Below are positions 2,749 to 41,812 of a stretch of DNA of 64,000 bases, piece after piece. A model generated the notes under the pieces. It was not told where the DNA came from. It did not search any database and saw only the letters and a list, made by a program, of their open reading frames with translations. Both the position numbers and the translations under genes were made by a program. Position 1 is the stretch's first letter. Each line of letters starts with the position of its first letter. Source of the stretch: Candidatus Saccharimonadota bacterium (GTDB lineage Bacteria; Patescibacteriota; Saccharimonadia; Saccharimonadales; Saccharimonadaceae); the NCBI GenBank assembly GCA_030528025.1, contig JAUMZP010000001.1, positions 124,001 through 188,000 of the forward strand, given 5' to 3'.

Positions 2749-3348
2749 CTAGCCGACAACAGAAGAATCTATTGTAAATCTAGAAGATCTCCGTTGTTCA
2801 ATAGCTTTTAGTTGTTTTTCTAGATCATCAATTATAGGAATAACTTTAAACTGCAGATCAAGAATTGCTTGATGTTCTTCCTTATCACCTGCAGCTATGG
2901 CCTTAGATTCGCGCTTTGCTAAATAGGCAAGTACCTTTCGATGGTAATACAGCTTGGTGGATAACTTCTCAAATAGAGATTGTTCTTTATTCAACCTACC
3001 CAGTAACCTACTGACTAGATTTTGATCTTTAATATTTTTAGGGCTAATCCCCTGTAAACCAGCAAAGAATTCATCAGAAATTGGGATTTCTATAGGGGTG
3101 CCTTCATAGCTCTCGTCGTTTGTTATTACTTTTCTATATCTTGGGCGTTTTTCTCCGCTTGGTTCTTCTTGATGGGTTGCTGCTGTATCGAGTGTATCCA
3201 TCGGCATGGCGTCGCACGCGGCAGACCCAATACCAGAAATTGCATTTATTTGCGTTTCTTCATCTTCATTGCGTTCTGGGGAAGGGGTTGATTCAACAGA
3301 GGTTTGCTCTGGAGTGTGGGATTGTTGAGGGTGCTCAAATGTAGACAT
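2749..3348 (-). CDS. Hypothetical coiled-coil protein
   Basis: The start at 3348 (MSTFEHPQQ) is preferred over the longer frame, which would run back toward the tRNA-Ser gene. The first ~100 residues are acidic, Ser/Thr/Pro-rich and probably disordered. The last ~95 residues are strongly helical with heptad-like Leu/Ile spacing (LVSRLLGRLNKEQSLFEKLS, then VIPIIDDLEKQLKAIEQRR), suggesting a coiled coil. There is no signal peptide, membrane helix or recognised domain. It is rather AT-rich compared with its neighbours. Function unknown. Confidence 0.6.
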   Translation of the reverse strand: MSTFEHPQQSHTPEQTSVESTPSPERNEDEETQINAISGIGSAACDAMPMDTLDTAATHQEEPSGEKRPRYRKVITNDESYEGTPIEIPISDEFFAGLQGISPKNIKDQNLVSRLLGRLNKEQSLFEKLSTKLYYHRKVLAYLAKRESKAIAAGDKEEHQAILDLQFKVIPIIDDLEKQLKAIEQRRSSRFTIDSSVVG

Positions 3349-8270: not shown

Positions 8271-8616
8271 GATACTATTCCTACGCTGTAGTGTATACGA
8301 TATGAGCGGTGTTGTAAAGACTGGGGTGGGGTGCGGACAGAGTAGGAGCGAAGGGTTGAATGGTGACATTGGCATCGTGGCGCATAAAACTTGGGCTGCA
8401 AGGTCAATATTTTCTGAGTTAGGTTGCTTTTGTTGCTGGGTTGCTTTATGAGATGATGAGATAAATAGTGATAGTTTTTAGCTCTGCACAGGGGTAGGAC
8501 TATTCGCCAATAGCAGCCTGTATAACGCTAGAAGGGGTTGCGCAATAGATACGGCTTGACATGCAGGTAGCAAAAACTTGACCACTGTGCGATATTATGC
8601 TAATATCGAACAAGAC
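8271..8616. other. Divergent promoter region, pilin array / VirB6-like gene
   Basis: No gene fits here. Minus-strand promoter elements for the pilin array probably lie near 8290-8300 (GTATAC). A clear plus-strand promoter is listed separately. The shared region would let the pilins and the large membrane protein be controlled together. Confidence 0.5.
8578..8606 (+). promoter_or_regulatory. Promoter of the VirB6-like gene
   Basis: TTGACC (8578-8583), 17-base spacer, TAATAT (8601-8606). The ATG follows ten bases after the -10 element, so the 5' leader is at most a few bases. Confidence 0.65.
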
Positions 8617-11589
8617 ATGAACAGAGCGTGGCGAGTGTTTGCGCGGGCGAGGAGTTGTCTGCGGCAATATACGGGGTGGCTGGCACTACTAGTGGCAGTG
8701 CTGTTCGGGCTTGCGCTTGCTACTCCTACGCCAGTGCATGCTGCTGAGACGGCGCAGCGCCAGGGCGAGAACCTCATCTTTCGTCATAATACCTTCAAGC
8801 CGCATCGGGCTAGCGACAAAGATCTAACCGCTCGTGGCTTACCTGCTGGTGTGCACTTCTATGAGTATGAGCCGACGACCAACCGGCGCCAGACCATCAT
8901 CTTCCCAGCTGGTAGCGACCCACTACGTGCCAAGGAAGCGACGTATGTGGAATATATCTTTGTTGAGCCAGATACGTACAACAAGATGGATGATGCTATC
9001 GCTATCTCTGTTTCGGGGCAGCAGGAGGCCGCGCCGCAAAACAACGGTGGCCAGAACAACCAAAATAACCAAAATAACGGTGGTCAAGCTGAGCAAAACA
9101 CTGGTAATAATCAGAACAACGCCAACGGCCAAAATGGTGGGAATAACGGCCAAGCGGCAAATAATAACAATAACAACCAACCCCAAGACAAACCCGCCGA
9201 GCAAACAGATAAAGATGATGGTGCCACGACCAGTTGTAGTGGCACAGCGCTGGGAAGCATTGGCTGGATTGTCTGCCCGGTGAGTAACTTCATGGCGTGG
9301 ATTACCGACCAGCTCTACCAGCAGGTGGCGCAGTATTTGGCGGTGCAGCCACTCCAATCTGGTAGTGATGGCACACTCTTTCGCTTTTGGGCGATCATGC
9401 GCGACTTGGCTAATATTGCCTTTATCATCGTCTCGCTCATCGTAATTTATTCGCAAGTTACTAGTGTTGGTATTAGCAATTATGGCATCAAGAAGATGTT
9501 TCCGCGCCTTGTCGTGTCAATTATCGTCGTTAATATGTCGTTTTGGCTATGTGCGGCAGCGATTGATATTTCAAACATACTGGGCTTTCAGCTGCAGCAG
9601 CTGTTTGTCAATATTGCCTCAACGGTCAATGGGGCGGATTATAACACGCTTAACAAAATTACGTGGCCTAATATCATGAGTGCTCTGCTGACAGGTAGCG
9701 CTGGTGCAGTGGGTGCGGTGGTGGGAGTGAGTGCACTGGTGGGTGCGACCGATGGAGCACTGGCGATGGCTATTCCGCTGCTGGTAGGTGTTCTGCTGGC
9801 GGTTATCATCGCTGCGGTTATCATCGCGGCGCGTCAGGCGCTCATCACGATTCTTGTTATCATCTCGCCCTTTGCCTTTTTATTACATGTACTGCCTAGT
9901 ACAGAGAAGTATTTTGATAAGTGGAAGGATCTCTTTATGACGATGATGCTGATGTTTCCGCTGATGTCGATATTGTTTGGTGGATCGCGCCTGGCAGGGG
10001 TGGCTATCTTGACCAATGGCAAGGATGCGAATAATCTCAACCTCATCATCCTTGGCCTGGCAGTGCAGGTGGTGCCACTGGTGCTAACGCCCTTTGTGGT
10101 GCGGATGAGCGGCTCGCTGCTGGGGCGGCTGGGCGCAATCATGAATGACCCGCGGCGTGGTATTGTCGACCGGACGCGGACTTGGGCGCAGCAGAGGGCA
10201 GACCTGCGCAAGTCGCGCGTGCTTGCTGGCGATGCGCAGCGCAACTGGCTGGGTAATGCGGCGCGGCGGCGGGCCCTGAAGAAGCGCGCTATTCAGCAGC
10301 GAACCGATGCTTATACCAAGCGCTTTGAAACAATGGCCGACTTATCAGCGGTGGGGCGGAGCAATGATGAATATAACCGCTACACCGACCTGCGCGCCAA
10401 GGAGGGAGAAGCGCGGCGCGACCGAGCCTGGAATACTCGCCTCTTGCACGATGATGAGCTCAAGCAGCGAGCGCTCAATACCCAGCTCACCTCTGATGAG
10501 GCCAAGAATGCTGCCCACAAGCTTGATGCGCTCTACGATGAGTTGAAGCTTGGTGGTGAGGTGCCGGCTGGCCTGAGTCATGGCCTGGGGCGGCGCGCTT
10601 ATGCAGCGGCCGAGGTGGGTGCGCTAACGGAGATCCGCAGTGCGATGGCGCAGCGCGAAGTGCGGGTGAAGATCGACCGTGAACTCTTGGCTGATGGGGT
10701 AGTGGCCAATGCCGATGGTGTGGTACTGCGCGATGGCGATGGTGTTGCTCTGCGCCGCCGAATGGTCGATGGCCAGACGCTGCAAGACTACGCCACAGGG
10801 GTAGGGCATAAGAACTTGATGGTAGCAGGCCAGACGGCGCGGCTGCGCAAGGAGTTTGGTGAGCATGTTGCGGCCGAAGACCAGCTGATGCGCCACTTTA
10901 AGCTCAATAGCAGCCAATGGCAAGCTATGGCCGCTACGGGCGATACCGCCATCACCCTCACCGATGCCAGCGGCAACCAGCACACGTTCCGGGCAGATAA
11001 TGAGTATGTCAAGGAGGCGGCTATCGAGCACCAGTTCCGAGCTGGCTCGGCTGGCCAAAAGCGCGAGATTATCCGCGAGACTGGCCGCGAGATCGAATAC
11101 GTGGCAGATGATGGCACAGTGCAGGTGCGTCAGGGGTACAACTACGATGCTCGCGCAACTGTCTCGGCTGAGGCGGTGGCCTCTGGGGTGGCGGGTGCGG
11201 TGCCATTTGTTAATGACGTGACATATGATGCGATCTTGCGTGGCGAATACAACGGCACAGCTGCTGAGAAGATGCACTCGCTGCGTCAGGTCTTTGAGGG
11301 ACGGCTCAAGGCAGAAAACTTCGCAGGGGCAAATGATGGCGCGCTAGAACTGATCTATAGTATCCCCGACTTGCCCGACTACCAGCAGATCAAAGACTCG
11401 TATCTTCGCACCCTCTCGCCCGAGAAGCGGGCTGCTATCGAGCCGACTTTCGATCAAGCCTATGCTGAGCGTCACCAAGCCCTTCGTCACGATGCTTACC
11501 GCATCCTCAATACCCCAGAGCTTCGTCGCAATACCAATGCCGCCAACCGTGCTGTGTATGAGCGGTATGCAGAGCAGCCACATAGGTAG
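8617..11589 (+). CDS. VirB6/TrbL-like type IV secretion membrane protein with long C-terminal domain
   Basis: 990 aa. A signal peptide (LLVAVLFGLALATPTPVHAA) leads to an extracytoplasmic domain of about 90 residues. A low-complexity Asn/Gln/Gly linker (about residues 135-195) follows, then a polytopic region of about six or seven helices (roughly 225-505). The segment SNYGIKKMFPRLVVSIIVVN leads into WLCAAAIDISNILG, an arrangement common in Patescibacteria VirB6-like proteins. The remaining ~480 residues are soluble and rich in Arg, Ala and Glu, with no recognised domain. VirB6 proteins form the inner-membrane channel of type IV secretion systems. The position opposite six pilin-like genes supports this, although no VirB4 or VirD4 ATPase is in the window. 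The ATG at 8617 is preferred to upstream non-ATG starts. Confidence 0.75.
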   Translation: MNRAWRVFARARSCLRQYTGWLALLVAVLFGLALATPTPVHAAETAQRQGENLIFRHNTFKPHRASDKDLTARGLPAGVHFYEYEPTTNRRQTIIFPAGSDPLRAKEATYVEYIFVEPDTYNKMDDAIAISVSGQQEAAPQNNGGQNNQNNQNNGGQAEQNTGNNQNNANGQNGGNNGQAANNNNNNQPQDKPAEQTDKDDGATTSCSGTALGSIGWIVCPVSNFMAWITDQLYQQVAQYLAVQPLQSGSDGTLFRFWAIMRDLANIAFIIVSLIVIYSQVTSVGISNYGIKKMFPRLVVSIIVVNMSFWLCAAAIDISNILGFQLQQLFVNIASTVNGADYNTLNKITWPNIMSALLTGSAGAVGAVVGVSALVGATDGALAMAIPLLVGVLLAVIIAAVIIAARQALITILVIISPFAFLLHVLPSTEKYFDKWKDLFMTMMLMFPLMSILFGGSRLAGVAILTNGKDANNLNLIILGLAVQVVPLVLTPFVVRMSGSLLGRLGAIMNDPRRGIVDRTRTWAQQRADLRKSRVLAGDAQRNWLGNAARRRALKKRAIQQRTDAYTKRFETMADLSAVGRSNDEYNRYTDLRAKEGEARRDRAWNTRLLHDDELKQRALNTQLTSDEAKNAAHKLDALYDELKLGGEVPAGLSHGLGRRAYAAAEVGALTEIRSAMAQREVRVKIDRELLADGVVANADGVVLRDGDGVALRRRMVDGQTLQDYATGVGHKNLMVAGQTARLRKEFGEHVAAEDQLMRHFKLNSSQWQAMAATGDTAITLTDASGNQHTFRADNEYVKEAAIEHQFRAGSAGQKREIIRETGREIEYVADDGTVQVRQGYNYDARATVSAEAVASGVAGAVPFVNDVTYDAILRGEYNGTAAEKMHSLRQVFEGRLKAENFAGANDGALELIYSIPDLPDYQQIKDSYLRTLSPEKRAAIEPTFDQAYAERHQALRHDAYRILNTPELRRNTNAANRAVYERYAEQPHR

Positions 11590-18664: not shown

Positions 18665-18759
18665 AGTACACAAATAAACACGGGAGGCAACAACAGGCAC
18701 ACAACCCCAGGCGCGCCCTGGTGGCTTGGTTTTTTGCGCCAAAAAGTAAAGGAGGGGAT

Positions 18760-21198
18760 ATGCAACCAGTTTCTATCATCAAACGAAATGGCAGTCGTGA
18801 GCCATTTGACATCAACAAAGTGAATGCCGCGCTGCTGGCCGCCAGCGAGGGCCTTGATGACCCGCTGAGCAAGATTGTGCAGATTGTTCGCGAGTTGCAG
18901 CTGACGCTGTTTGAGGGGATGACCACCAGCCAGCTGGACGAGACACTCATCCAAACAGCGGTGCAAAACATCAAAGATGACCCAGATTATGATACGATTG
19001 CTGCTCGGCTACTGCTGCGGACTATCTATCGTGATCTACTGGGTGAGTATAGTAGCGATGAGGAGCTACGCCAGCGACATGCGGCGGTGTTTCCGGATTA
19101 TATTCACCATGCGGTGGCTGATAGATTGCTTGATCCGCGAATGCAAGATCCGGGGGTGTTTGATATACCGCGGTTGGCGGCCGAGCTGGACCCCAGCAAG
19201 GATAAACTGAGCAAATACCTTGGCGTGGTGACCAACCGTAACCGCTATGCCTTGCGCAAGCAAAATGGCGACCCTCTTGAGGTGCCGCAGTTTACCAACA
19301 TGCGGATTGCTATGGGACTGAGCTTCAATGAGGCCAACCCAACAGAGGCGGCGATTGAATTTTATCATCACATGGCTAACCTCGAGTACAGCCCAGGCGG
19401 CAGCACGCGCGTCAACGCTGGTGGCTCGTTCCCACAGTTAAGCAACTGTTTTGTCATGGAAGTGGGCGACGACATGGAGTCAATCGCCAAGGCGGTTCGC
19501 GATACCATGTTTATTGCCAAGGGTACCGGCGGTATTGGCATTAGCATGAATAAATTGCGGGCGGCTGGCAGCCCCGTCAAGACCACCAACACCGAGAGCA
19601 CTGGGCCGATTCCGTTTATGAAGATGATTGACACGGCGCTGTTTGCGGTGAGTCGCAAGGGCAAAAAGGCTGGCGCTGCTGCTGCGTATATGGAAAACTG
19701 GCACCTTAATTTTCCGCAGTTTGTTGACCTGCGTATGAACTCGGGCGACCCGTATTTGCGCACGCGCTTTCTCGATACGGCGGTGTTTATTAGCGATGAA
19801 TTTATGCGCCGAGTACAAACAGACGAGGATTGGTATTTGTTTGACCCGGCTGAGGTAAGTGATCTACCCGAACTATATGGTCAGGCTTTTGCCAAGCGTT
19901 ACAATTATTACATTGAGCAGGCCGAGGCAGGCGAGCTGCGAGCATTCGAAAAAATGCCAGCACGGCAGCAATTTCACAAAATTCTCAGTAGCCTCCAAGC
20001 GACTGGCCACCCCTGGCTCACCTGGAAGGATACTATCAATCTGCGAGCGCTCAACAATAACACTGGCACCATTCACCTCAGTAACCTCTGTACCGAGATC
20101 ACCTTGCCTCAGGATGACAAAAATATTGCAGTGTGTAACCTGGTGAGTATCAATCTGAGTGCGTTTTTGGACGTGGAGACCAAAACCTGGGATTGGCAGC
20201 GGCTGGAGCAAGCCACCCGCTCGGCCACCCGTCAATTGGATAATCTGGTGGATATTACCACCACACCAATCCCCGAGGCAATGAACAGTAATGTGCAGAA
20301 TCGCGCCATTGGCCTGGGCTTTATGGGTCTGGCTGATGTCTTGGAAAAGCTAGAATTGAGCTATGAGTCGGATAAAGCCTATGACTTGGTGGACCAGTTG
20401 GCGGAGTTTATTAGCTACTATGCCATTGATGAGTCGGCCGAGCTGGCCCAAACCCGCGGCAGCTATCCCAACTTTGCGGGTAGTGGCTGGAGCAAGGGAC
20501 AGTTGCCAATTGACACACTTGATACTGTATCAAGTGATCGTCAGCTGGCGGTTGCTATCGACCATACGACGCGGCTTGATTGGGAGAGCTTGCGTGTCAA
20601 GGTCAAGCGCGGCATGCGCAACGCTACTTTGATGGCTATAGCGCCAACGGCGAATATTTCTCACGTGACGGGCACGACCCCTGGTATTGACCCGCAGTTT
20701 AGCCAAATTTTTAGCCGCAGCACCCTCAATGGTAAGTTCCTTGAAGTCAACACCAACCTGGTCAATAAGCTCAAGCAGCTGGGCCTTTGGGAAGACCTCA
20801 AAGATGAATTGTTGACCACCCAGGGCGATATCCAACACATGGAGCAGATTCCTCAGGCGGTGCGCAACGTCTACAAAACCAGCTTCCAGTTGAGCCCCTA
20901 TGCCTTTATTGAGGTGGCAGCTCGGGCGCAGAAGTGGGTTGACCAAGCCATCAGCCGCAATATGTATCTCGAGAGCCGCAACATCGACGAATATATCACT
21001 ATTTATAGCGAAGCCTGGCGTCGCGGCCTCAAGACCACCTACTACCTGCACGTCAAGCCTCGTCACCAATCGGAGCAGGTCTCTATTCGCGCTAACAAAA
21101 CCGAGCAAAAACTCCACCAAGACGCCAAGCGCGTGGGCTTTGGTGGCTTCTACCGCGCACGCAAGAAACAAGAGGAAGGGAAGGAGAAGGAATCGTGA
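18760..21198 (+). CDS. nrdA: Ribonucleoside-diphosphate reductase alpha subunit, class I, lacking the C-terminal redox tail
   Basis: 812 aa from the ATG at 18760, which has GGAGGGG just upstream. An N-terminal ATP-cone (residues ~4-95) is followed by the catalytic barrel. Visible residues are C230 (QLSNCFV) and C459 (AVCNLVS) as the reducible pair, C444 with N442 and E446 (SNLCTEI) as the thiyl-radical site, and Y761-Y762 for radical transfer. After YY the protein runs 50 more residues, ending EEGKEKES, with no cysteine. Normal NrdA ends in a CxxC or CxxxxC pair that passes electrons from thioredoxin. It should form the enzyme with NrdB and reduce NDPs to dNDPs. The stop overlaps the next gene (GTGA). 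Confidence 0.95.
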   Translation: MQPVSIIKRNGSREPFDINKVNAALLAASEGLDDPLSKIVQIVRELQLTLFEGMTTSQLDETLIQTAVQNIKDDPDYDTIAARLLLRTIYRDLLGEYSSDEELRQRHAAVFPDYIHHAVADRLLDPRMQDPGVFDIPRLAAELDPSKDKLSKYLGVVTNRNRYALRKQNGDPLEVPQFTNMRIAMGLSFNEANPTEAAIEFYHHMANLEYSPGGSTRVNAGGSFPQLSNCFVMEVGDDMESIAKAVRDTMFIAKGTGGIGISMNKLRAAGSPVKTTNTESTGPIPFMKMIDTALFAVSRKGKKAGAAAAYMENWHLNFPQFVDLRMNSGDPYLRTRFLDTAVFISDEFMRRVQTDEDWYLFDPAEVSDLPELYGQAFAKRYNYYIEQAEAGELRAFEKMPARQQFHKILSSLQATGHPWLTWKDTINLRALNNNTGTIHLSNLCTEITLPQDDKNIAVCNLVSINLSAFLDVETKTWDWQRLEQATRSATRQLDNLVDITTTPIPEAMNSNVQNRAIGLGFMGLADVLEKLELSYESDKAYDLVDQLAEFISYYAIDESAELAQTRGSYPNFAGSGWSKGQLPIDTLDTVSSDRQLAVAIDHTTRLDWESLRVKVKRGMRNATLMAIAPTANISHVTGTTPGIDPQFSQIFSRSTLNGKFLEVNTNLVNKLKQLGLWEDLKDELLTTQGDIQHMEQIPQAVRNVYKTSFQLSPYAFIEVAARAQKWVDQAISRNMYLESRNIDEYITIYSEAWRRGLKTTYYLHVKPRHQSEQVSIRANKTEQKLHQDAKRVGFGGFYRARKKQEEGKEKES

Positions 21199-21503
21199 GC
21201 CACGAGTATAGCGACACGCCAAAGGTAAGGGTGGACTCAACGGGTTATCGACATGTAGAGTTGCCAGTTGATGGGACGCAGCGACCGGAGCTTGCACCGA
21301 GTAGTGTCCAGCGCACTATCGGCACTGTAGCGATTACAAAGATAGATGGTACAGCGCCAATGTATTATATACAAGATACACTTGATGCAGGCCTGGACTC
21401 ACCACTCTTCCCAGCGCCAGAAGCGTCCGAGAGCTCGCGCCAGCAAAACAACAACTCTGCGGTTAAAGGGCGCCACCCAGCAGATATGGAACCAGAAATA
21501 TAA
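21195..21503 (+). CDS. Small hypothetical protein between nrdA and nrdB
   Basis: 102 aa starting with GTG, overlapping the nrdA stop by four bases, with GGAGAAGG upstream. Polar and Pro/Ser-rich, no cysteine, no membrane helix. The middle (GTVAITKIDGTAPMYYIQDT) could form a few strands. No family recognised. Its fixed place between the two reductase subunits suggests it is co-translated with NrdA and may act on the complex, but this is inference only. Confidence 0.6.
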   Translation: MSHEYSDTPKVRVDSTGYRHVELPVDGTQRPELAPSSVQRTIGTVAITKIDGTAPMYYIQDTLDAGLDSPLFPAPEASESSRQQNNNSAVKGRHPADMEPEI

Positions 21504-21555
21504 GCTTAGATAGTATAATAATTAATTCGTTTTTTACAAAAACAAGGAGGTAATA

Positions 21556-22533
21556 ATGGGCATTCTAGGATCAGGCGTGCGCGATGGCTTGCAGCTCAAG
21601 CCGGTGCGCTATGACTGGGCATACCGCCTATACAACCAAGCGGTGGCCAATACGTGGTTCCCTAATGAGGTGCAGTTGAGTCAGGACTTGGCGGATTTTG
21701 AGAAATTGAGTGAGGACGAAAAGCACGCCCTCAAGACGGTGATTAGCTACCTTAATCCTAACGAGCTGCTGATTAATAAATCGCTGGCTTTTGGTATTTA
21801 CCCCTGCGTGAACGCCGCTGAGTGCCACCTGTATCTTTCGAAGCAGATGTGGGAAGAGGCGAACCACTTTATGACGTTCGAATATATTATCGAGACCTTC
21901 CCGTTTGACCGTGAGGAAATTTATGCGGCGGGCTGGGGTAAAAAATCCCTGGCAGATAAAGCTGCCTTTCAGACCAAATACGTCACGCGCATGATGGAGG
22001 AGCGCCCGGATGTGACGACGCTGGAGGGCAAGAAGGACTTTGTGCGCAACTTGGTGGCGTATAACATCGTGCTAGAAGGGATTTGGTTCTACAGTGGCTT
22101 TATGGTGGGGATGAGCTTCCGTCGGCGCAACCTACTGCGCAACGTTGGCACGCTGCTCGATTGGGTGACGAAGGATGAAAACCTACACCTGGAGTTTGGC
22201 ATTAACCTACTACTAACTATTTTGCATGAAAACCCCGACCTACAGACTGAGGAGTTTGCTGAGGAAATCCGTAGCTTAATCCTGGAAGCTGTTGAGCTCG
22301 AGAAAGCGTATAACAAAGACATGCTGCCGCGTGGCATTCTGGGCCTAAACGCCGACTACGTCAACCAATACGTGATGTATATGACTGACCGGCGGCTGGA
22401 GGAGCTCGGCTTTGAGCCAGAGTATAACGTGACCAACCCAGCCAAGTGGATGGCCGCTGCCAACGACACGCTGGAGCTAGTGAACTTCTTCGAGAGTACC
22501 AATACGAGTTATGAGGTGAATACGACGAAGTAG
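21556..22533 (+). CDS. nrdB: Ribonucleoside-diphosphate reductase beta subunit, class Ic
   Basis: 325 aa with AAGGAGG upstream. Metal ligands can be placed as E70, E101, H104, E174, E208 and H211. Their spacing equals that remembered for the Chlamydia trachomatis class Ic protein (E89, E120, H123, E193, E227, H230). The residue at the radical-tyrosine position is F108 (HFMTF), so a Mn/Fe cofactor rather than a tyrosyl radical is expected. The tail has the interface Tyr (TSYEV). It generates the radical that NrdA uses. A class Ic enzyme is more resistant to oxidants that destroy tyrosyl radicals. Confidence 0.93.
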   Translation: MGILGSGVRDGLQLKPVRYDWAYRLYNQAVANTWFPNEVQLSQDLADFEKLSEDEKHALKTVISYLNPNELLINKSLAFGIYPCVNAAECHLYLSKQMWEEANHFMTFEYIIETFPFDREEIYAAGWGKKSLADKAAFQTKYVTRMMEERPDVTTLEGKKDFVRNLVAYNIVLEGIWFYSGFMVGMSFRRRNLLRNVGTLLDWVTKDENLHLEFGINLLLTILHENPDLQTEEFAEEIRSLILEAVELEKAYNKDMLPRGILGLNADYVNQYVMYMTDRRLEELGFEPEYNVTNPAKWMAAANDTLELVNFFESTNTSYEVNTTK

Positions 22534-32422: not shown

Positions 32423-34171
32423 ATGGATGCCAAAGAAGAGGTGCGGGCGCGCTTAAATATAGAGGATGTAGTGGGCGAATATGTGCAACTTAAGCGGGCG
32501 GGGCGGAGTTACAAAGGTTTGAGCCCCTTTACCAGTGAGCGGACGCCGAGCTTTTTTGTGAGCCCGGAGAAGAATATTTGGCATGACTTTAGTAGTGGGC
32601 GGGGCGGCGATGTCTTTAGCTTTATTATGGAAGTAGAGGGGCTAGACTTTCGCCAGGCGCTGGAGTTACTCGCGCGCAAGGCGGGGGTGGATCTTTCGCG
32701 CTATGAGCAGAAGAGTAACCGTGACCTGGCGCGGCGCAAGCAGCGGCTGCTTGAGGCGCATCGACTAGCAGCGAATTTTTATCAGCATTGTTTGGTGCGG
32801 AGCGAGGATGCACTGGTCTATGTGTTTCGGACGCGGCGGCTGAGCAAGGTGATTGTCCAACAGTTTCAGATTGGCTATGCACCGCGTGATGGTCATGCTC
32901 TGGTAACATATCTTAAGAAAAAAGGCTTTTCGCTGGCGGAGCTGCGCGAGGCGGGCCTGGTGAACCGCTACGATGGTGACCTCTTCCGCGGGCGGATGAT
33001 GGTGCCGTTAATGGATGCGAGTGGGCAGGTGATTGGTTTTACGGCGCGCTTGATTGCTGATGTGCCCAATGCACCAAAATACCTCAATACACCTCAGACA
33101 CTGCTCTATGATAAAGGCCGGCATGTCTTTGGCTTGATGCAGGCCAAGCAGACGATTCGGGCCCAGGGCTATGTGGTGATTGTCGAGGGCAATATGGATG
33201 TGATAAGCAGCCATCAGGCGGGCGAAACAGCGGTGGTAGCGACGGCGGGCACTGCTATGACGGAGCAGCATATTCGGGCGCTCAAGCGGCTGGCGGGCGA
33301 TATTCGGCTGAGTTTTGATGGTGATAATGCTGGGCGGGCTGCCACAGAGCGAGCGATTGGCCTAGCCACTCAGGCGGGGGTGGAGCTAAAGGTGGTGTCG
33401 CTGCCGACAGGGGCAAAAGACCCTGATGAACTCATCCAGCAGCAGGGGGTAGCGGCCTGGCAGCAGGCGATAGCGGCGGCTCAGCCAGCGGTGGATTGGC
33501 TCCTAGCGCAGTATCGGCAGCAGCTTGATCTTACCACAGCAGCGGGTAAGCGGCAGTTTACGACGGTTGGACTGGCACTTGTTAATCGCTTGGGTGACCC
33601 GGTCGAGCGCGAGCACTACCAGCGGCAGATTGCTCAGGCAGTGGGCTCGAGTGTCCAGGCCGTTCAGGCCAAGGCGCAGCAAACGGCACCGGCTGCCCCC
33701 ATCCGCAAGGCCGTCAAGGCGGCTGCGGCTGCGCCACGCAATCGCTACCTCGTACAAGATGATGTGCTTGCGTTGGCGATGCTCGATGGGCCGAGCCAGG
33801 AGTTGTTTGGGCAGGTTGACCGGCAGCTCTTTGCAGGGGAGGCGCGCCAGGCCTTGGCTCAGTACTATGCGGCGCACCACGGGCAACCTCTTACCACTAC
33901 GCCGCCGCCATTGCAAAATTTTGACGAGTATATTACAATGGTACGGGTACGTGCCGACGCTCGGTATGGTGCGTGGAGCGAGACCGATCGCTACTACGAG
34001 ACAGCCCGGCTTTTGCGGCAAATCGAAACCGAACATAAGCAGCAACACAAACAAGATCTCATCACCCACTTGCGCCAAGCAGAAGAGAGCGGCGATACGA
34101 CTGCTGCCGCCGCTTTGCGCGAGCAACTGAACCAATTAATCAAGGAGATAGCGCGTGGCAACCGACGATAA
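32423..34171 (+). CDS. dnaG: DNA primase without zinc-finger ligands
   Basis: 582 aa. The N-terminal domain aligns with the CHC2 zinc finger, but the ligands are gone: [20 protein letters not shown] then [12 protein letters not shown], where C/H/C/C positions are S, T, D and S. The TOPRIM domain is intact ([20 protein letters not shown], then [13 protein letters not shown]). A C-terminal helicase-interaction region is short. It makes RNA primers at the replication fork. TATACT is six bases before the ATG (leaderless). It overlaps rpoD by 17 bases, giving a dnaG-rpoD macromolecular-synthesis arrangement as in many bacteria. Confidence 0.94.
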
Positions 34172-35180
34172 GGATACCAAGCAAAAAAAACCAGCAACCA
34201 CAGCTCAGGCAGCGCCACCCGATGCCCAGCCGCCGATCGTGGATCTAGCCGTCGACGATATGGAGCCCGACCTCGCGGCACTTGAGGAAGAAGACACGCC
34301 AGAGGAGATTCTTAACAGTAACCAATACTTTGATGATATTAGTGATGACTCGGTCCGGCTACACCTGCGCGAGATCGGCAAGATCCCACTGCTCAGCGCT
34401 GACGAAGAGGTAGACCTAGCCTACCGGATTAAGCAGGGTGATAAGCGCGCCAAAGACAAAATGGCCGAGGCTAATATGCGCCTGGTGGTAAGCATTGCCA
34501 AGCGGTATAGTGGTCGTGGCCTTGATTTTCTCGATCTTATCCAGGAAGGGCACACGGGGCTATTGCGGGCGGTGGAGAAGTTTGACCCAGATAAGGGCTT
34601 TAAGTTTAGCACCTATGCTACCTGGTGGATTCGCCAGGCGATTACGCGCGCTATTGCCGACCAAGCGCGCACTATTCGTATTCCTGTCCACATGGTGGAG
34701 ACGATCAACAAGCTGCTGCGCACCCAGCGCCGCCTCACTCAAGACCTCAACCGCGAGCCAACCATTACGGAGCTTGCCAAAGAGCTTGACATGGAACCGG
34801 ATAAGGTCGAATATGTGATGAAGATTAAGCAAGACATTAGTAGCTTAGATGCTGGTGTGGGGCGCGATGGCGACGACTCGGAGGAGTCGGTGCTCGGGGA
34901 CTTTATCGAGGACGAAGATACGGTCAGCCCTGAAGAATCGGCCTCTAACCAGCTTCTCAAAGAGCAGGTGCAAGATATCCTCTCGACCTTGAGCGACCGC
35001 GAGCAGAAGATTATCAAAATGCGCTTCGGCCTGGAGAATGGCAAGAGCCATACGCTGGAGGAAGTTGGGCAGGAGTTTGCCGTGACGCGTGAGCGTATTC
35101 GTCAGATTGAGGCCAAGGCTCTGGCCAAGCTGCGTAAGCACAAGGACGCCAAGAAGCTGTATGAGTATTTGCAGCAGTAG
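34155..35180 (+). CDS. rpoD: Primary sigma factor (SigA/RpoD)
   Basis: 341 aa with GTG start and AAGGAG eight bases upstream. Region 1.2 ([17 protein letters not shown]), region 2 with [24 protein letters not shown] and the -10-recognising [19 protein letters not shown], region 3 and region 4 ([26 protein letters not shown], the -35 helix-turn-helix) are all present. The short acidic N-terminus lacks region 1.1. It directs RNA polymerase to the TTGaca/TATAmT promoters seen across the window. Confidence 0.97.
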
Positions 35181-35906: not shown

Positions 35907-36482
35907 TTACAGCCAACCAATCTCGCGGCAGAGGGCGTCGACTTGCTGGTGGAGTTCGGTGAGGTCGTGGCTGTTGGAGATGAAGTGGTCGGCAATGGCG
36001 ATGGGGCCGCCTTTCTCAATATCTTCAATTTCCGACCAGTCGCGGGCGATTGCTTCCTGCGCAGTAAAGGGCCGCTCGGGTCGCTGGGCGAGGCGACGGT
36101 GGCGGAGTTGTTTGGGTGCGACGATGGCAGCGACAACGAGCTCGCCTGGGAAGTGGTGGGTGAGGTATTTGTACTCCGTCCAGGAGTAGAGGCCATCAAA
36201 GAGGATGTGGCGCTGCCCAGCGGCGGCGAGGCGCTGCATTTGCTCGGCAGCGGTGCGAATGATGATGTCTTTGCCAGCCTCTTCGCGCCAGGCTTTGCGA
36301 AATTTGGCTTGTGACTGCGGGGTGATAGCGATGCCGCGGCGGCGCATTTCGTCGTAGAGGATGCCACCAGCGTAAACCTTGGGGATGCCGAGGCGTGCCA
36401 CGTGGTTGACCGCCTCGCTCTTGCCTGCGCCTGAGAGGCCAACGAAGGCAAGGATTGTCGTCGGGTGAGATGGATGATTCAT
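35907..36482 (-). CDS. P-loop nucleotide/CoA kinase-like protein
   Basis: 191 aa. Walker A FVGLSGAGKSEAV at residues ~13-25, then a LID/NMP-like arrangement with YAGGILYDEMRRRG, LFDGLYSWTEYKYL and VVAAIVAPKQLRHRRL. The pattern resembles dephospho-CoA kinase and adenylate kinase relatives, but the exact substrate is not clear. TATACT lies six bases before the ATG (leaderless). It is divergent from the WhiB-like genes. Confidence 0.75.
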   Translation of the reverse strand: MNHPSHPTTILAFVGLSGAGKSEAVNHVARLGIPKVYAGGILYDEMRRRGIAITPQSQAKFRKAWREEAGKDIIIRTAAEQMQRLAAAGQRHILFDGLYSWTEYKYLTHHFPGELVVAAIVAPKQLRHRRLAQRPERPFTAQEAIARDWSEIEDIEKGGPIAIADHFISNSHDLTELHQQVDALCREIGWL

Positions 36483-36548: not shown

Positions 36549-37268
36549 ATGGAAGAGCAGCCAGCTGCACAGCCATCACGACCAGAGCGACTCCCACGCT
36601 ACGCACCAATCGACCTTGCGTCGCGCATCTTCTACTTGCGCATACGAGTGCGGCAGCAAAGGGGAGTGGCGCTTCCACCGCAATGGATGCGCGATGCTGC
36701 CTGCAACCCGGCCACAAGTGAAGAATATTTTAGTGGCAAGCCAGAAGACACGGCACTGGCATTGCGGCGCTGCATTGGTTGTGCGGTGATTGATGTGTGT
36801 GCGGCATATGCAGTGAGAGAAGGAGTGTCGGTTGGGATCTGTGCTGGCCTCACAGCGAAGCAGCGGGAGCAACTAACGGACGAATCTGCACCGGCGGATC
36901 TCCCGAGCCAATCTACCACGCTCACCGCTGTCATGCATCACGCCGTCCACATCAATGATACGCCCGAGACGCGGATTGCCTGGGCGGAGCAGTGTATGGC
37001 CGAGCGGCGACATATTGGATATATTCCCACGTCGCAGACTTTTGCTCGCTTGGCGCTGTGTATTGATGCCGAGACGAAGCAACGGATAGAGCCCGAGCAG
37101 CGTGAAGATTGTGCTGGGTGCCCGGTGGTAGCCGAGTGCTTGCTCTTTGCGCTGCGGGGGTACCAACGTATTATCGCTGCTGGTGATGTCCGTGGCGGCA
37201 CAACCCAAGCTGACCGCCAGCAGTGGGGTGCGCCCAAACCCAAGCAGCGGCGTACTCGGCGATACTGA
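36549..37268 (+). CDS. Protein with two WhiB-like Fe-S domains
   Basis: 239 aa. Domain 1 has C52, then C75-x2-C78-x5-C84 (RRCIGCAVIDVCAAYAVR), followed by VGICAGLTAKQREQL, corresponding to the WhiB turn and basic region. Domain 2 has C171 (or C149), then C188-x2-C191-x5-C197 (EDCAGCPVVAECLLFALR) and AAGDVRGGTTQADRQQW, with a basic tail (PKPKQRRTRRY). Each four-cysteine set should hold a [4Fe-4S] cluster. WhiB proteins bind the primary sigma factor and act as redox or NO-sensing regulators. They are regarded as actinobacterial. A double-domain form is unusual. TACAAT lies nine bases before the ATG. Confidence 0.8.
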   Translation: MEEQPAAQPSRPERLPRYAPIDLASRIFYLRIRVRQQRGVALPPQWMRDAACNPATSEEYFSGKPEDTALALRRCIGCAVIDVCAAYAVREGVSVGICAGLTAKQREQLTDESAPADLPSQSTTLTAVMHHAVHINDTPETRIAWAEQCMAERRHIGYIPTSQTFARLALCIDAETKQRIEPEQREDCAGCPVVAECLLFALRGYQRIIAAGDVRGGTTQADRQQWGAPKPKQRRTRRY

Positions 37269-37384
37269 GAAGGAACGTGGTCGAGCGACGAATAGACCAT
37301 ACACTGCTTATGCTTGGCAAAACAATAGGAGTGTGGAATAATGCAGAAGCTAACGTTTTTGTATAGTAAAAAGAGTAAAGACTT

Positions 37385-37819
37385 ATGACGCGTGAACAAC
37401 AAACAAACGCAGCACCAGCCACACAGGCAATGCGAGAACAGATGAAGAGTGATGGTGTGAGCCCTGCGGTATATACTGAGCGGCTGCTTCGTGAGGGATA
37501 CAAACTAGCCCCTCGATCAGCATGGATTGGACAAGCTGCCTGCAGCCTCGAGGACGAACAGTACTTTATTGGCCTCGATGGGAGAAAGCGGGAGCATTGG
37601 GAAAATATTGAAAAAGGGAAAACAATATGCCGCCACTGCCCAGTGCAGGCTGAATGCCTTGCGGCACATATGGCGAGTGTCACAAAACACCAGCCAGATA
37701 CAGATGTTGTTGTTGGTGGAACAGACAATGTTGAGCGAGCACGTGCCCGGCGACAGGTTGCGCAGGAGTTAGCACGAAGGATGCAGAGCAGCCAAGGCGA
37801 TGGAAAGGCGTTAGCGTAG
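37385..37819 (+). CDS. WhiB-like Fe-S transcription factor
   Basis: 144 aa, single domain. C53 (QAACSLEDEQYF), then C82-x2-C85-x5-C91 (TICRHCPVQAECLAAHM), and the turn VVVGGTDNVERARARR with basic C-terminal helix. This matches the WhiB layout of four cysteines, a G[VI]WGG-like turn and a basic DNA-binding segment. The N-terminal ~45 residues are extra. It is the second WhiB-like gene in tandem and probably a regulator acting with SigA. Confidence 0.8.
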   Translation: MTREQQTNAAPATQAMREQMKSDGVSPAVYTERLLREGYKLAPRSAWIGQAACSLEDEQYFIGLDGRKREHWENIEKGKTICRHCPVQAECLAAHMASVTKHQPDTDVVVGGTDNVERARARRQVAQELARRMQSSQGDGKALA

Positions 37820-37935
37820 CGTTTCAGTGTAGTAATACTTATGCTATAACAATTGAAAAATCCGACAGAACGTGTACACTTATACATAACGTATGGGTAT
37901 ATAAGCACACATGTGTGCAGGCTGAGGAGATAATA

Positions 37936-39171
37936 GTGCAGCGACGAGGTGGGCTGGTGTATGGAGTAGTGGGTGTCCTTGTTGCGGGTGCTCTGTCGGT
38001 GATGTTTGGTGGGGCTGCCCAGGCGCAGCAGTGGCAGATGGTGTATAACGAGGAGTTTACGGCACCACTGTCGAATTGGAAGGTTCTTCAGCAAAATAAA
38101 GATAATTATGGCAAGGAGCATTTGGCATATAGCGCCAATAACGTTGCAGTGACTAACGGTTCTTTGCAAATTACGACCCGGCGTCACTGTGTGTCGAGTG
38201 TGGCTGAGCCACTGGGCGATAGCAACGCCAGCCAAGAGCCGTGCCCGTCTGGCAAGATGACACGCTACCAGAGTGGGCGAGTGGAGTCGGGTCGGGTGCT
38301 CGATGGGCATAAACCATTCCACGTCGAGGTACGAGCGAAGATTAATTGGAATGGCGAGAATGGGACGCGCCCAGCTATTTGGCTGCGCAATAGTGTGACG
38401 CTTGCCAACTGCAGCAACAACAAGCAAGCGAATGACCCTTATGGTGAGCTCGACATGCTGGAGTGGTATTCATGGACGCCGACCTACACATGGTCGACGA
38501 CGCATATTCGCTGCTACCATAGCCCGTCATCGCAGATATGGAAGACGAAGGGGTTAGGACATAGCCGAGAGAACCTCATACCGTCCCCAGTGACGTTGGC
38601 GAACAACTGGCATATCTGGGCGACGGAATATGATGGTGAGACGGTCAGATTCTTCGTGGATAACCAGCCGGTGCTGGTGTATAACTATCGAGCGGGCGAT
38701 GAGAAAAGTCATCCAACTGCTCGGGTCCCAGCAGAAAAACCAGCAAAAATGGGCATGGATGCGAATCAATTCAAGCAAGTCTTTGACGATACGTGGTATG
38801 TTATTCTCAACGATTATGTGGAGTGGAAGAGTGAGGAGCACCCGCCCGACTCATCGAAGAAGTTTGCCAACCAGACCTTCCTCATCGACTACGTCAAGAT
38901 ATACCAAAGTGGTGCTCCGACTACTGGCGAAAAACCATCAACTACCACACCAGAGAAAAAGGACGACAAGAAAGATAAAAAGCCGGGTACCAAACGGATG
39001 ACGGTGAAGAAGAAAAAGAGTGCGTTTACTGCGCAGGGTCCGCTGGCTGAGCTGATGAGCAACTTTGTGCCAGCACTGCTGCTGAGCCTGTGTTTGCTGC
39101 TTATCGCACTAGCTGGCTGGCTGGTATGGTGGTGGCGTCGCCGTCGCCACCGCATTCAGCCTACGCTGTAG
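37936..39171 (+). CDS. Surface-anchored GH16 family glycoside hydrolase
   Basis: 411 aa from GTG at 37936 (GAGGAG seven bases upstream). Signal peptide with cleavage after AAQA (about residue 30). GH16 domain: residues ~36-310, with the catalytic GELDMLEW motif (E171, D173, E176) and the usual W-rich cleft (WLRNSV, WYSWTPTYTWSTTHI). A Thr/Pro/Lys/Asp linker (KKDDKKDKK), a C-terminal helix (VPALLLSLCLLLIALAGWLVWWW) and a basic tail (RRRRHR) follow. GH16 enzymes cut beta-1,3/1,4-glucans, galactans and related polymers. The anchor would hold the enzyme on the outer face of the membrane, where a host-attached cell could attack host or biofilm glycans. Confidence 0.88.
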   Translation: MQRRGGLVYGVVGVLVAGALSVMFGGAAQAQQWQMVYNEEFTAPLSNWKVLQQNKDNYGKEHLAYSANNVAVTNGSLQITTRRHCVSSVAEPLGDSNASQEPCPSGKMTRYQSGRVESGRVLDGHKPFHVEVRAKINWNGENGTRPAIWLRNSVTLANCSNNKQANDPYGELDMLEWYSWTPTYTWSTTHIRCYHSPSSQIWKTKGLGHSRENLIPSPVTLANNWHIWATEYDGETVRFFVDNQPVLVYNYRAGDEKSHPTARVPAEKPAKMGMDANQFKQVFDDTWYVILNDYVEWKSEEHPPDSSKKFANQTFLIDYVKIYQSGAPTTGEKPSTTTPEKKDDKKDKKPGTKRMTVKKKKSAFTAQGPLAELMSNFVPALLLSLCLLLIALAGWLVWWWRRRRHRIQPTL

Positions 39172-39244
39172 CTGGAGGGTAGGAAGCAGGGTAGAAGTGC
39201 TGCGCGAGGATGTTTCTGCACGGCACCAATGCTATACTAGAACT

Positions 39245-41812
39245 ATGATGAAGCGCCTAGTAATTATCGATGGCAAAAGTGTGTTCTACCGTGGGTACTA
39301 TGCCATGCCCAACCTTTCGACGGCCGACGGGACGCCAACTGGCGGGGTGTATGGCTTTGCGGCGCTGAGCCTAGAGCTGATCAAGCGCCTCCAGCCAGAC
39401 TACGTGTGCGTGGCGTGGGATAAGCCCAAGACGAATATCCGCCGCCGTCTTGCCATTTACGACCAATACAAGGCTGGTCGTAAGCCGGCTCCGCCAGATT
39501 TTTACGCCCAGATACCACTACTCCACGAGCTTTTGCAGGCGTTTGGCTGGCCGCTGTATGAGTTTGATGACTATGAGGCAGACGATATTATGGCGACGCT
39601 CGACGCTCAGGCTGAGCAGGAGGGAGATATCGAGACGTATCTTATAACGAGCGATCTTGACGCCTTGCAAATACTCGACCAAAATACCTACCTCTATGCC
39701 TTGAAGAAAGGCTTGACCAATATCGACAAATTCGACATCGCTGCCTTTGAGCAGCGCTATGGTATTCGGATTAGCCAGTTCCTCGACTTTAAGAGCCTCA
39801 AGGGCGATGCGTCGGATAATATCCCGGGCGTGCCAGGCGTGGGGGAGAAGACGGCGGTTAAACTGCTGCAGCAATTCGACACGCTTGACAACCTTTATGA
39901 TAACCTCTGGCAGGTCAAGGATACCTTGCGCCGTAAGCTGGAGCAGGGCAAAGATTCGGCCTATATGAGCCGCGAGCTAGCCCGGCTGTATACCGATGCA
40001 TCGGTGACGCTTGACCGAGCAGCGATGGCGATGGATAACTGCGACCCAGCGACGGTGCGGGCAATGTTGCAGCGGCTGGAGTTTCGTAGCTTGCTGCGCC
40101 AATTGCCGCCACAGATGCAGGCGGCAGAGAGTGCTCAGCCATCTGATGCATCAGTGGTGCAGCATGCGACTGAGCTGCCTGCTCACCAGGCCAAGGCGCT
40201 CTTCCTGATGGCCAAAGAGCTGCTGGTCTGGCCGGTCGAGGGCGGCGTCTGGGTGAGCCACGAGCGAGGCAAGGCAGTCCGCCTAAGCTGGCGTGATGCG
40301 ATTGATGTTATTCCGCATGTGCCGATTGTTGGGCACCGCACCAAGGAATTATTACGCCACTTGCTGGCTCGTGGCGTGCGGCAGCTGCCAGTCGTGAAGC
40401 ACGATACTGCCCAAGGGTCGTTTTTGCTCAATCCACTGCGCACGTCGCGGGCGCTGGCTGATCTCGCGGGGCTGGAGTCGCTTGATGACCCACGTCTTGC
40501 TATTAGTGCGCTGTGGGCGGTGTACGATGAGCAAACTCAGGCGCTTGATGCACTGCCCGAACTTGCCCGGGTGGCACGGACGATGGACTTTCCACTTATC
40601 CCTGTGCTGGCGCGGATGGAGTGGCGCGGTATCCGGCTCGATAGCCGCACACTTGCGGCGATGCAGCGCACCTTGAGCAGCGAGATCACCGAGTTGCAGC
40701 AGCAGATTTATGGCATGGTGGGGTATGAGCTTAATATTGGCAGCCCGGCTCAACTGGCCGAGGCACTCTTTGTGAAACTCCAGCTGCCAACAGCGGGCAT
40801 TAAGAAGGGTAAGACGGGTTACTCGACGAGCCAGAAGGAGCTGGATAAGCTTCGGCCACATCACCCGATTATTGGGCTGGTGGAGCGCTACCGCGAGCTG
40901 ACGAAGCTGCAAAACACGTATGTTGAGGCACTGCCGCAGCTGACCGACGACGCAGGCTATATCCACACTACTTTTAACCAAGATGTGGTGGCGACGGGCC
41001 GGCTCAGTAGTACCGACCCAAATTTGCAAAACATCCCGATTCGCAGTGAGCTGGGGCGGCACGTTCGCGATGCCTTTGTACCAGCGCCGGGCAATGTATT
41101 TGTTAACGCTGACTATTCGCAGTTTGAGCTGCGCCTGGCGGCGGTGCTGTCGGGGGAGGAGGCGATGATTCGCGATTTTAATACCGATATCGACATCCAC
41201 GCGAACACGGCCGCCCAGGTGTATGGGGTACCGCTTGATGTCGTCACAAAGGAGCAGCGCCGCCGGGCCAAGGTGGTGAATTTTGGGGTGCTCTATGGGA
41301 TGAGCCAGCATGGCTTGGCTGCTGCAGCTCATATGAGCTATGCCGAGGCGCAGCACTTTATTGATGAGTATTATCGTCTTCGGCCGAAGCTCAAAGCCTA
41401 TATGGCGCAGACCATCCAGCAAGCGCATGATGCGGGCTTTGTCCAGACGCTGTTTGGTCGCCGCCGCTGGACGCCGGATGTTGCGTCGCGTAACTTTGCG
41501 GTGCGCAGCGCTGCCGAGCGAGCGGCTGCTAATATGCCGATCCAGGGTACCGAGGCTGATCTCATGAAGCTTGCCATGCTGGCGGTGGAAGATAAGCTGG
41601 CCCAGACTGGAGAGCAGCTAGCCGATGGCGATGGCCAGCCGCTCGGTTGGCAGGTGGTGCAGATCCACGATAGCATTATGGTTGAGTGTCCACGCGCTCA
41701 TGCCGAGCAGGTGAGCCATATCCTGCGCGAGACGATGGAGTATATTTATCCGCAGCTTGGTGTTAAGCTCAAGGTCGACGTCTCGATTGGTGAGCATTGG
41801 GGAGCGGTCTGA
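39245..41812 (+). CDS. polA: DNA polymerase I
   Basis: 855 aa. The N-terminal 5' nuclease domain (RLVIIDGKSVFYRGYYAMP, DYEADDIMATL, DASDNIPGVPGVG) is intact. The middle domain, corresponding to the 3'-5' exonuclease, has none of the D-x-E or YxxxD residues, so proofreading is expected to be absent, as in Taq polymerase. The polymerase domain carries motif A VNADYSQFELRLAA, motif B RRRAKVVNFGVLYGMS and motif C VQIHDSIMVECP. It processes Okazaki fragments and fills repair gaps. TATACT at 39233-39238 is six bases before the ATG (leaderless). Confidence 0.96.
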   Translation: MMKRLVIIDGKSVFYRGYYAMPNLSTADGTPTGGVYGFAALSLELIKRLQPDYVCVAWDKPKTNIRRRLAIYDQYKAGRKPAPPDFYAQIPLLHELLQAFGWPLYEFDDYEADDIMATLDAQAEQEGDIETYLITSDLDALQILDQNTYLYALKKGLTNIDKFDIAAFEQRYGIRISQFLDFKSLKGDASDNIPGVPGVGEKTAVKLLQQFDTLDNLYDNLWQVKDTLRRKLEQGKDSAYMSRELARLYTDASVTLDRAAMAMDNCDPATVRAMLQRLEFRSLLRQLPPQMQAAESAQPSDASVVQHATELPAHQAKALFLMAKELLVWPVEGGVWVSHERGKAVRLSWRDAIDVIPHVPIVGHRTKELLRHLLARGVRQLPVVKHDTAQGSFLLNPLRTSRALADLAGLESLDDPRLAISALWAVYDEQTQALDALPELARVARTMDFPLIPVLARMEWRGIRLDSRTLAAMQRTLSSEITELQQQIYGMVGYELNIGSPAQLAEALFVKLQLPTAGIKKGKTGYSTSQKELDKLRPHHPIIGLVERYRELTKLQNTYVEALPQLTDDAGYIHTTFNQDVVATGRLSSTDPNLQNIPIRSELGRHVRDAFVPAPGNVFVNADYSQFELRLAAVLSGEEAMIRDFNTDIDIHANTAAQVYGVPLDVVTKEQRRRAKVVNFGVLYGMSQHGLAAAAHMSYAEAQHFIDEYYRLRPKLKAYMAQTIQQAHDAGFVQTLFGRRRWTPDVASRNFAVRSAAERAAANMPIQGTEADLMKLAMLAVEDKLAQTGEQLADGDGQPLGWQVVQIHDSIMVECPRAHAEQVSHILRETMEYIYPQLGVKLKVDVSIGEHWGAV

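Follow-up and report, generated by a model that had tools for sequence, protein, structure and literature searches.

Diverged WhiB-like proteins encoded beside the principal sigma factor gene of a Saccharibacterium, and the occurrence of WhiB across its class

WhiB proteins are regarded as characteristic of Actinobacteria and of actinophages. Saccharibacteria are epibionts that live on Actinobacteria, and a 64,000-nucleotide stretch of DNA from a member of this group (referred to here as the window) contains two adjacent WhiB-like (Wbl) genes close to rpoD/sigA (34155..35180, plus strand), which encodes the principal sigma factor SigA and is recognised by Pfam sigma-70 regions 1.2-4. The locus raises the question of how WhiB can function where SigA does not have the residue to which WhiB is anchored in other cells. 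We analysed the two proteins, named P0001 and P0002, together with the occurrence, genomic location and ancestry of WhiB in the class as a whole.

The gene pair and its source cell

The window lies on a 533-kb contig (C9) of a 1.03-Mb genome with a completeness of 98.6% and a contamination of 0.16%. This contig also carries the 16S gene (L299:424-1899), in which there are exact sites for the Saccharibacteria primers TM7314F, TM7580F and TM7-910R (primer sequences from PMC6073563), of which the TM7-910R site is not fully specific, being also present in 4 of 343 Patescibacteria outside the Saccharibacteria class. The source cell is a Saccharibacterium, as had been presumed from the window sequence. 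Epibionts get sampled together with their hosts, and one could ask whether the WhiB genes are host actinobacterial DNA assembled into a Saccharibacterial bin; a locus elsewhere (L034, on a 6.5-kb contig with 4% contamination) could be such a case. However, the WhiB genes of the window have Saccharibacterial rpoD, kinase and polA on their flanks, an arrangement shared by many independent genomes, and their location on a 533-kb contig with Saccharibacterial 16S refutes contamination at this locus. The probability of an assembly artefact is vanishingly small.

Both ORFs are intact. P0001 (36549..37268, plus strand) has 239 amino acids and two WhiB-like domains, one at residues 46-109 and the other at about 145/171-225, and P0002 (37385..37819, plus strand) has 144 amino acids and a single domain. 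When the whole genome was searched with the PF02467 profile, exactly three matches emerged, all within these two proteins: 45.7 bits for P0001 domain 1 (36684..36875, plus strand; G000:C9:160684-160875), 23.9 bits for P0001 domain 2 (37086..37223, plus strand; G000:C9:161086-161223), and 41.0 bits for P0002. All three exceed the curated Pfam cut-off of 23.6 bits, with domain 2, which aligns to profile positions 23-64, clearing it by little. The E-values of the whole proteins are 5.7e-16 for P0001 and 5.2e-10 for P0002, and domain 2 is matched separately by the WhiB-like family PHROG 31604 (residues 151-238, E 8.3e-9). The profile search confirms the WhiB-family membership that the sequence-only reading had proposed from cysteine spacing, and no different zinc-binding family was found; NCBIfam provided no WhiB-specific family for any protein compared here. 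At the level of sequence, we regard the profile match as the real proof of WhiB identity, rather than the shuffle statistics of the Cys pattern: C-x(10-45)-C-x2-C-x5-C arose in 177 shuffles of P0001 and 5 shuffles of P0002, out of 20000 for each protein.

The four-Cys set C...C-x2-C-x5-C is present in P0001 domain 1 (W46, C52/C75/C78/C84, turn GICAG at 96-100) and in P0002 (W47, C53/C82/C85/C91, turn VVVGG at 108). In P0001 domain 2, which has the turn GDVRGG at 212 and a basic tail, the last three cysteines (C188/C191/C197) are clear and the first is C171 or C149, the latter preceded by W145. The cysteine sets initially noted (C52/75/78/84, C171/188/191/197 and C53/82/85/91) are therefore correct in position, with the reservation that C149 may replace C171. 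A basic segment had also been noted after each turn; this is true of the tails of domain 2 (net charge +6) and P0002 (+3) but not of domain 1, where residues 101-125 have a net charge of -2. All three domains lack the Trp of the WhiB turn motif G[I/V]W[G/A]G, although the position of the turn is retained. The aromatic pair (YF) is retained in P0001 domain 1 and P0002, and the aromatic segment is gone from domain 2, which probably does not form a full cluster site any more. The C-terminal AT-hook RGRP of the WhiB7 type is absent from both proteins, and scans for promoters and terminators at the locus gave nothing above chance level.

The AlphaFold2 models have mean pLDDT values of 61 (low to moderate) for P0001 and 73 for P0002. 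When both models were compared with the PDB by Foldseek, the top matches were all WhiB proteins (probability 1.00, E about 0.01), with WhiB1, WhiB3 and WhiB first for P0001 and WhiB1, WhiB3 and WhiB7 for P0002. This match supports rather than proves the WhiB fold because the AlphaFold2 input alignment contained WhiB sequences. The best fold match of both models is Mycobacterium tuberculosis WhiB1 in complex with SigA region 4 (6ono, 6onu, 5oay). Among WhiB proteins it is also the closest in sequence to P0002 (E 6e-4), which keeps the Trp six residues before the first Cys but differs from WhiB1 by a loop inserted before the turn and by having V where WhiB1 has the turn Trp. The best solved match of P0001 (E 6e-5) is the Streptomyces venezuelae WhiB of the WhiB2/WhmD subclass in the RNAP-SigA-WhiA-WhiB complex (8dy7/8dy9), which is likewise the best solved match of the Saccharibacterial profile A1 (E 4e-37). 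P0001 has the W-x5-C...C-x2-C-x5-C layout and the position of the turn in common with this protein. It differs in having a second domain and no turn Trp, and in belonging to a class without WhiA and to a cell whose SigA has no His-Pro pair. We firmly conclude that P0001 and P0002 are genuine, strongly diverged members of the Wbl family.

WhiB in the class and the slot between rpoD and polA

WhiB was detected in 91 of 295 genomes of the Saccharibacterial class, including single-contig genomes and members of many families. In a phylum-wide draw, it was found in 18 of 37 members of the class compared with 0 of 343 other Patescibacteria (P = 6e-21 by Fisher's exact test). Among the sampled Patescibacteria, Wbl genes are confined to Saccharibacteria, which contradicts any notion that they are present in nearly all of the phylum. 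About a third of the sampled Saccharibacterial species carry WhiB, with insertion favoured next to the main sigma factor gene; in the genus of the window genome the proportion is 3 of 13. The WhiB family is well known, and its occurrence in Saccharibacteria extends the range of the family. A search of the open literature (subscription journals were outside its reach) retrieved no report linking WhiB and Saccharibacteria in this way. P0001 and P0002 are an odd, diverged variant, and the surprise rests on the class-wide pattern more than on the pair.

No orthologue of the pair was found. The two-domain architecture occurs only in the window genome among those sampled, in agreement with its earlier description as unusual. 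Tandem WhiBs elsewhere are separate ORFs, with four in a row in G055. Fusions of WhiB to long segments with no or weak Pfam match were noticed at loci L082, L087, L096, L097, L098, L102, L104, L106, L110 and L119, the partner in L119 being a MarR-like helix-turn-helix by a weak Pfam match. A contig labelled as Acidobacteria bacterium isolate G2_11 (L169), which is possibly misbinned, also carries a WhiB2-like gene (3001-3201) that shares 87% identity with a gene from Saccharibacteria.

The gene order dnaG - rpoD - (small genes) - AAA kinase (in reverse orientation) - polA is kept in the genus. In the window, the divergent left border of the variable interval, or slot, is an AAA-type nucleotide kinase gene (35907..36482, minus strand; PF13207), a neighbour conserved in the genus and the family, and the right border is polA (39197..41812, plus strand), with homologues 50-78% identical at the same place in related genomes. 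The slot of the window contains P0001, P0002 and a gene for a GH16-family hydrolase-like protein (37915..39171, plus strand; PF00722, 25 bits). In most genus-mates without WhiB, the gap between the kinase gene and polA amounts to tens to a few hundred bp. One genus-mate (G010) has a second sigma-70 gene in this gap, and in another (G003) the GH16 homologue is located on the opposite side of the kinase gene, between it and rpoD (L120:13472-14491).

WhiB genes are located in the rpoD-polA interval (about 0.9-5.5 kb) in 15 of the 20 WhiB-bearing genomes of the family that were examined. A binomial calculation for independent placement gives about 1e-29, a value that is overstated as the genomes share ancestry and that shows only that the placement is not random. 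The slot WhiBs of the relatives (L081, L086, L087, L092, L098 and others) are identified as occupying the same chromosomal slot by the AAA kinase and polA. They differ from P0001 and P0002 in being mostly canonical single-domain proteins like WhiB1, WhiB2 or WhiB3, several with long extensions without Pfam match. By best match, most are WhiB2-like, three genomes have WhiB1-like and three WhiB3-like proteins, and two WhiB types occur together in G019. Extra sigma-70 genes are found in the slot at loci L085, L094 and L124, with G035 and G191 among the genomes concerned. Across the family the slot holds WhiB1-, WhiB2- or WhiB3-like genes, additional sigma-70 factors, or little or nothing. The variable rpoD-polA slot is where Wbl genes accumulate in this family, and because the subclass differs from genome to genome and extra sigma-70 genes occur in the same place, it resembles a hotspot for transcription-factor cargo and not a single ancestral insertion.

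Outside the family, WhiB directly follows rpoD in G227 and is located elsewhere in other genomes. A second recurrent site lies near a gene that we take, from our own reading of its sequence, to encode a glutamyl-tRNA synthetase-like protein (G003, G144). Large orphan proteins also recur in or beside the rpoD-polA slot together with WhiB (L081:7756-9285, L082:8785-10395, L096:7659-9311, L091 and L092, the last two with ORFs of 963 and 988 amino acids); the three tested, those of L081, L082 and L096, have no Pfam match.

Ancestry of the Saccharibacterial WhiB genes

The relationship to actinobacterial WhiBs was assessed with a tree of 115 domains, 81 Saccharibacterial and 34 actinobacterial, on which subclass labels were assigned by sequence hallmarks. 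Saccharibacterial sequences nest inside actinobacterial WhiB1-, WhiB2-, WhiB3- and WhiB4-like groups, and 19 label changes are needed on the tree, at least 8 of them forced by well-supported branches. Eight slot WhiBs are about 70-83% identical to actinobacterial WhiB1 or WhiB2, and when a canonical Saccharibacterial WhiB was searched against named genomes, Actinobacteria accounted for almost all of the 80 best matches. The nesting in several actinobacterial subclasses shows that Saccharibacterial Wbl genes were acquired several times, for which independent transfers are the simplest explanation. Their source was most simply the Actinobacteria that these cells live on, or the phages of those bacteria. 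The pattern is a record of regulatory genes passing repeatedly between Actinobacteria and the epibionts that are known to live on them.

The domains of the window pair are more difficult to place. Their branch lengths of 2.5-3.2 are among the longest in the tree, so no donor can be named and no single actinobacterial subclass can be assigned. P0001 domain 1 groups with the WhiBs of G062 and of the genus-mate G003, a placement that is unsafe as long branches meet there. The sequence-only reading had suggested that the genes may derive from a host. A derivation from Actinobacteria holds for the Saccharibacterial WhiBs at large, but the window pair is too diverged to support a recent gift from the current host.

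The genes could instead have come from actinobacteriophages and not directly from a host chromosome, and have been kept for phage interference or exclusion. Actinophages widely carry WhiB (PMC8612146). In a tblastn search against phages, P0001 matched only WhiB genes, carried by phages of Gordonia, Microbacterium and Propionibacterium (best match at 34% identity with E 1e-5), and phage WhiB profiles match at E 6e-15. The similarity to the WhiB of the Gordonia phages Asapag and Malisha, however, is limited to domain 1 (34% identity over about 70 residues), belongs to a phage context, and is no closer than that to chromosomal WhiBs, such as the 35% identity to the WhiB of L118. There are no phage genes among the recognised neighbours of the locus, no plasmid match to it was found, and no IMG/VR viral contig encodes a close relative, on which grounds we rejected a prophage or plasmid origin of the locus itself. 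We consider a phage origin followed by retention for phage exclusion improbable.

WhiB and the transcription machinery of the epibiont

In M. tuberculosis, substitution of H516 in SigA, or of F31, F32 or W76 in WhiB3, abolishes the interaction between WhiB3 and SigA region 4 (PMC10245118); W76 is the turn Trp. The C-terminus of the window SigA, which aligns without gaps to solved SigAs in this part, reads K-H where actinobacterial SigA has H516-P517. The same is true more widely: all Saccharibacterial SigAs read are without His-Pro at this position, whether WhiB is present or absent, and so are nearly all of the other Patescibacteria read (L270-L298). In other bacteria, a His-Pro pair is standard where SigA region 4 ends. 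The anchor was therefore probably missing before WhiB arrived. A comparison of the His-Pro pair with WhiB presence is uninformative within the class, as every Saccharibacterial SigA read lacks the pair. The aromatic pair that contacts SigA in mycobacteria is nevertheless kept in 67 of 79 Saccharibacterial WhiB domains, and the turn Trp in 70 of 79, compared with 79 of 80 actinobacterial domains, which suggests that something still selects for the SigA-contact surface. For P0001 and P0002 themselves, binding to the SigA at 34155 in the known way is doubtful because that SigA lacks His-Pro and both proteins lack the turn Trp.

Two further components of the textbook mechanism were looked for. WhiA, the partner of Streptomyces WhiB, was found in 0 of 295 genomes of the class by PF02650, with all 3 controls positive, and a mechanism dependent on WhiA, like that of the Streptomyces WhiB/WhiA activator, was rejected. 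SufBD is absent from the window genome. In a class-wide draw of 190 genomes it exceeded the family cut-off in two genera only, neither of which has WhiB, and in none of the WhiB-bearing genomes (14 of 14 controls have it); the WhiB-bearing G176 shows a trace below the cut-off. In this survey of the SUF system, the absence raises the question whether and how Saccharibacterial WhiBs would be supplied with Fe-S clusters.

A direct way into the question of WhiB action in these cells is provided by a natural fusion. In G312, a 455-amino-acid ORF (L117:8010-9377; G312:C14:11012-12376, minus strand) contains sigma-70 regions 2, 3 and 4, with region 3 below the cut-off, and carries a WhiB domain (E 6e-10) on their C-terminal side. 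It adjoins three more WhiB genes, so that the cluster comprises four WhiB domains, one being part of the sigma fusion. Among the 295 genomes, the only full-length match to this protein is itself. The fusion and the co-location of WhiB and sigma factor genes both point to WhiB being functionally linked to sigma factors in Saccharibacterial cells.

It is conceivable that the WhiBs act in the actinobacterial host instead, where SigA has the His-Pro anchor, SUF can load the cluster and WhiA is present. Such use would explain at once why the epibiont has no SigA anchor, no WhiA in any of the 295 genomes and no SufBD in its WhiB-bearing members, because the host has all three, and it would be consistent with the widespread retention of the aromatic pair and the turn Trp. 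On the other hand, no secretion signal was noticed, and the genes sit with rpoD and extra sigma factors, one of them fused to a sigma factor, which indicates the cell's own polymerase. The window pair has lost the turn Trp, and the change in SigA is general in Patescibacteria and need not reflect WhiB biology. We regard action in the host as quite improbable, and the broader proposal, that Saccharibacteria repeatedly capture host WhiB genes for use on the host RNA polymerase and not on their own, as very improbable.

On balance, we lean towards the view that P0001 and P0002 are diverged Wbl regulators acting at the epibiont's own RNA polymerase by way of a modified sigma interface, a function that we infer from the evidence above. 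Inside the epibiont, the Cys set would hold a redox-responsive cluster or a metal, and the basic tails of P0002 and P0001 domain 2 may touch DNA. Docking would have to use an altered interface because in this cell neither partner has its half of the known anchor pair, SigA His516 on the one hand and the Wbl turn Trp on the other. The window pair would then represent a rapidly diverging and partly degenerate local version of such regulators. The pair might conceivably sense host-derived stress, as was suggested earlier.

The same divergence could also mean that the pair is decaying. The two genes would then be acquired WhiB copies under relaxed selection, with the WhiB fold but no sigma binding, serving a structural role through Cys/zinc or a disulphide, or nearing loss. 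The absence of the turn Trp from every domain and of the aromatic segment from domain 2 fits this scenario, as do the position of the pair among the longest tree branches and the patchy presence of WhiB in the genus. The codon-adaptation values of the pair, 0.63 and 0.53 compared with 0.66-0.75, are the lowest of the genes compared. However, both ORFs are intact, domain 1 and P0002 keep the four cysteines and the preceding Trp, and one would expect useless genes to be shed from a reduced genome. We consider decay unlikely, though by no means far-fetched, and continue to favour regulation at the epibiont's own polymerase.

Two other features of the window were noted in passing. Positions 8578-11589 contain an ORF of 1003 amino acids with no Pfam match, and at positions 18721-22533 NrdA, which has an ATP cone, and NrdB make up a ribonucleotide reductase pair of class I, a type that requires no radical-SAM iron-sulphur activase.
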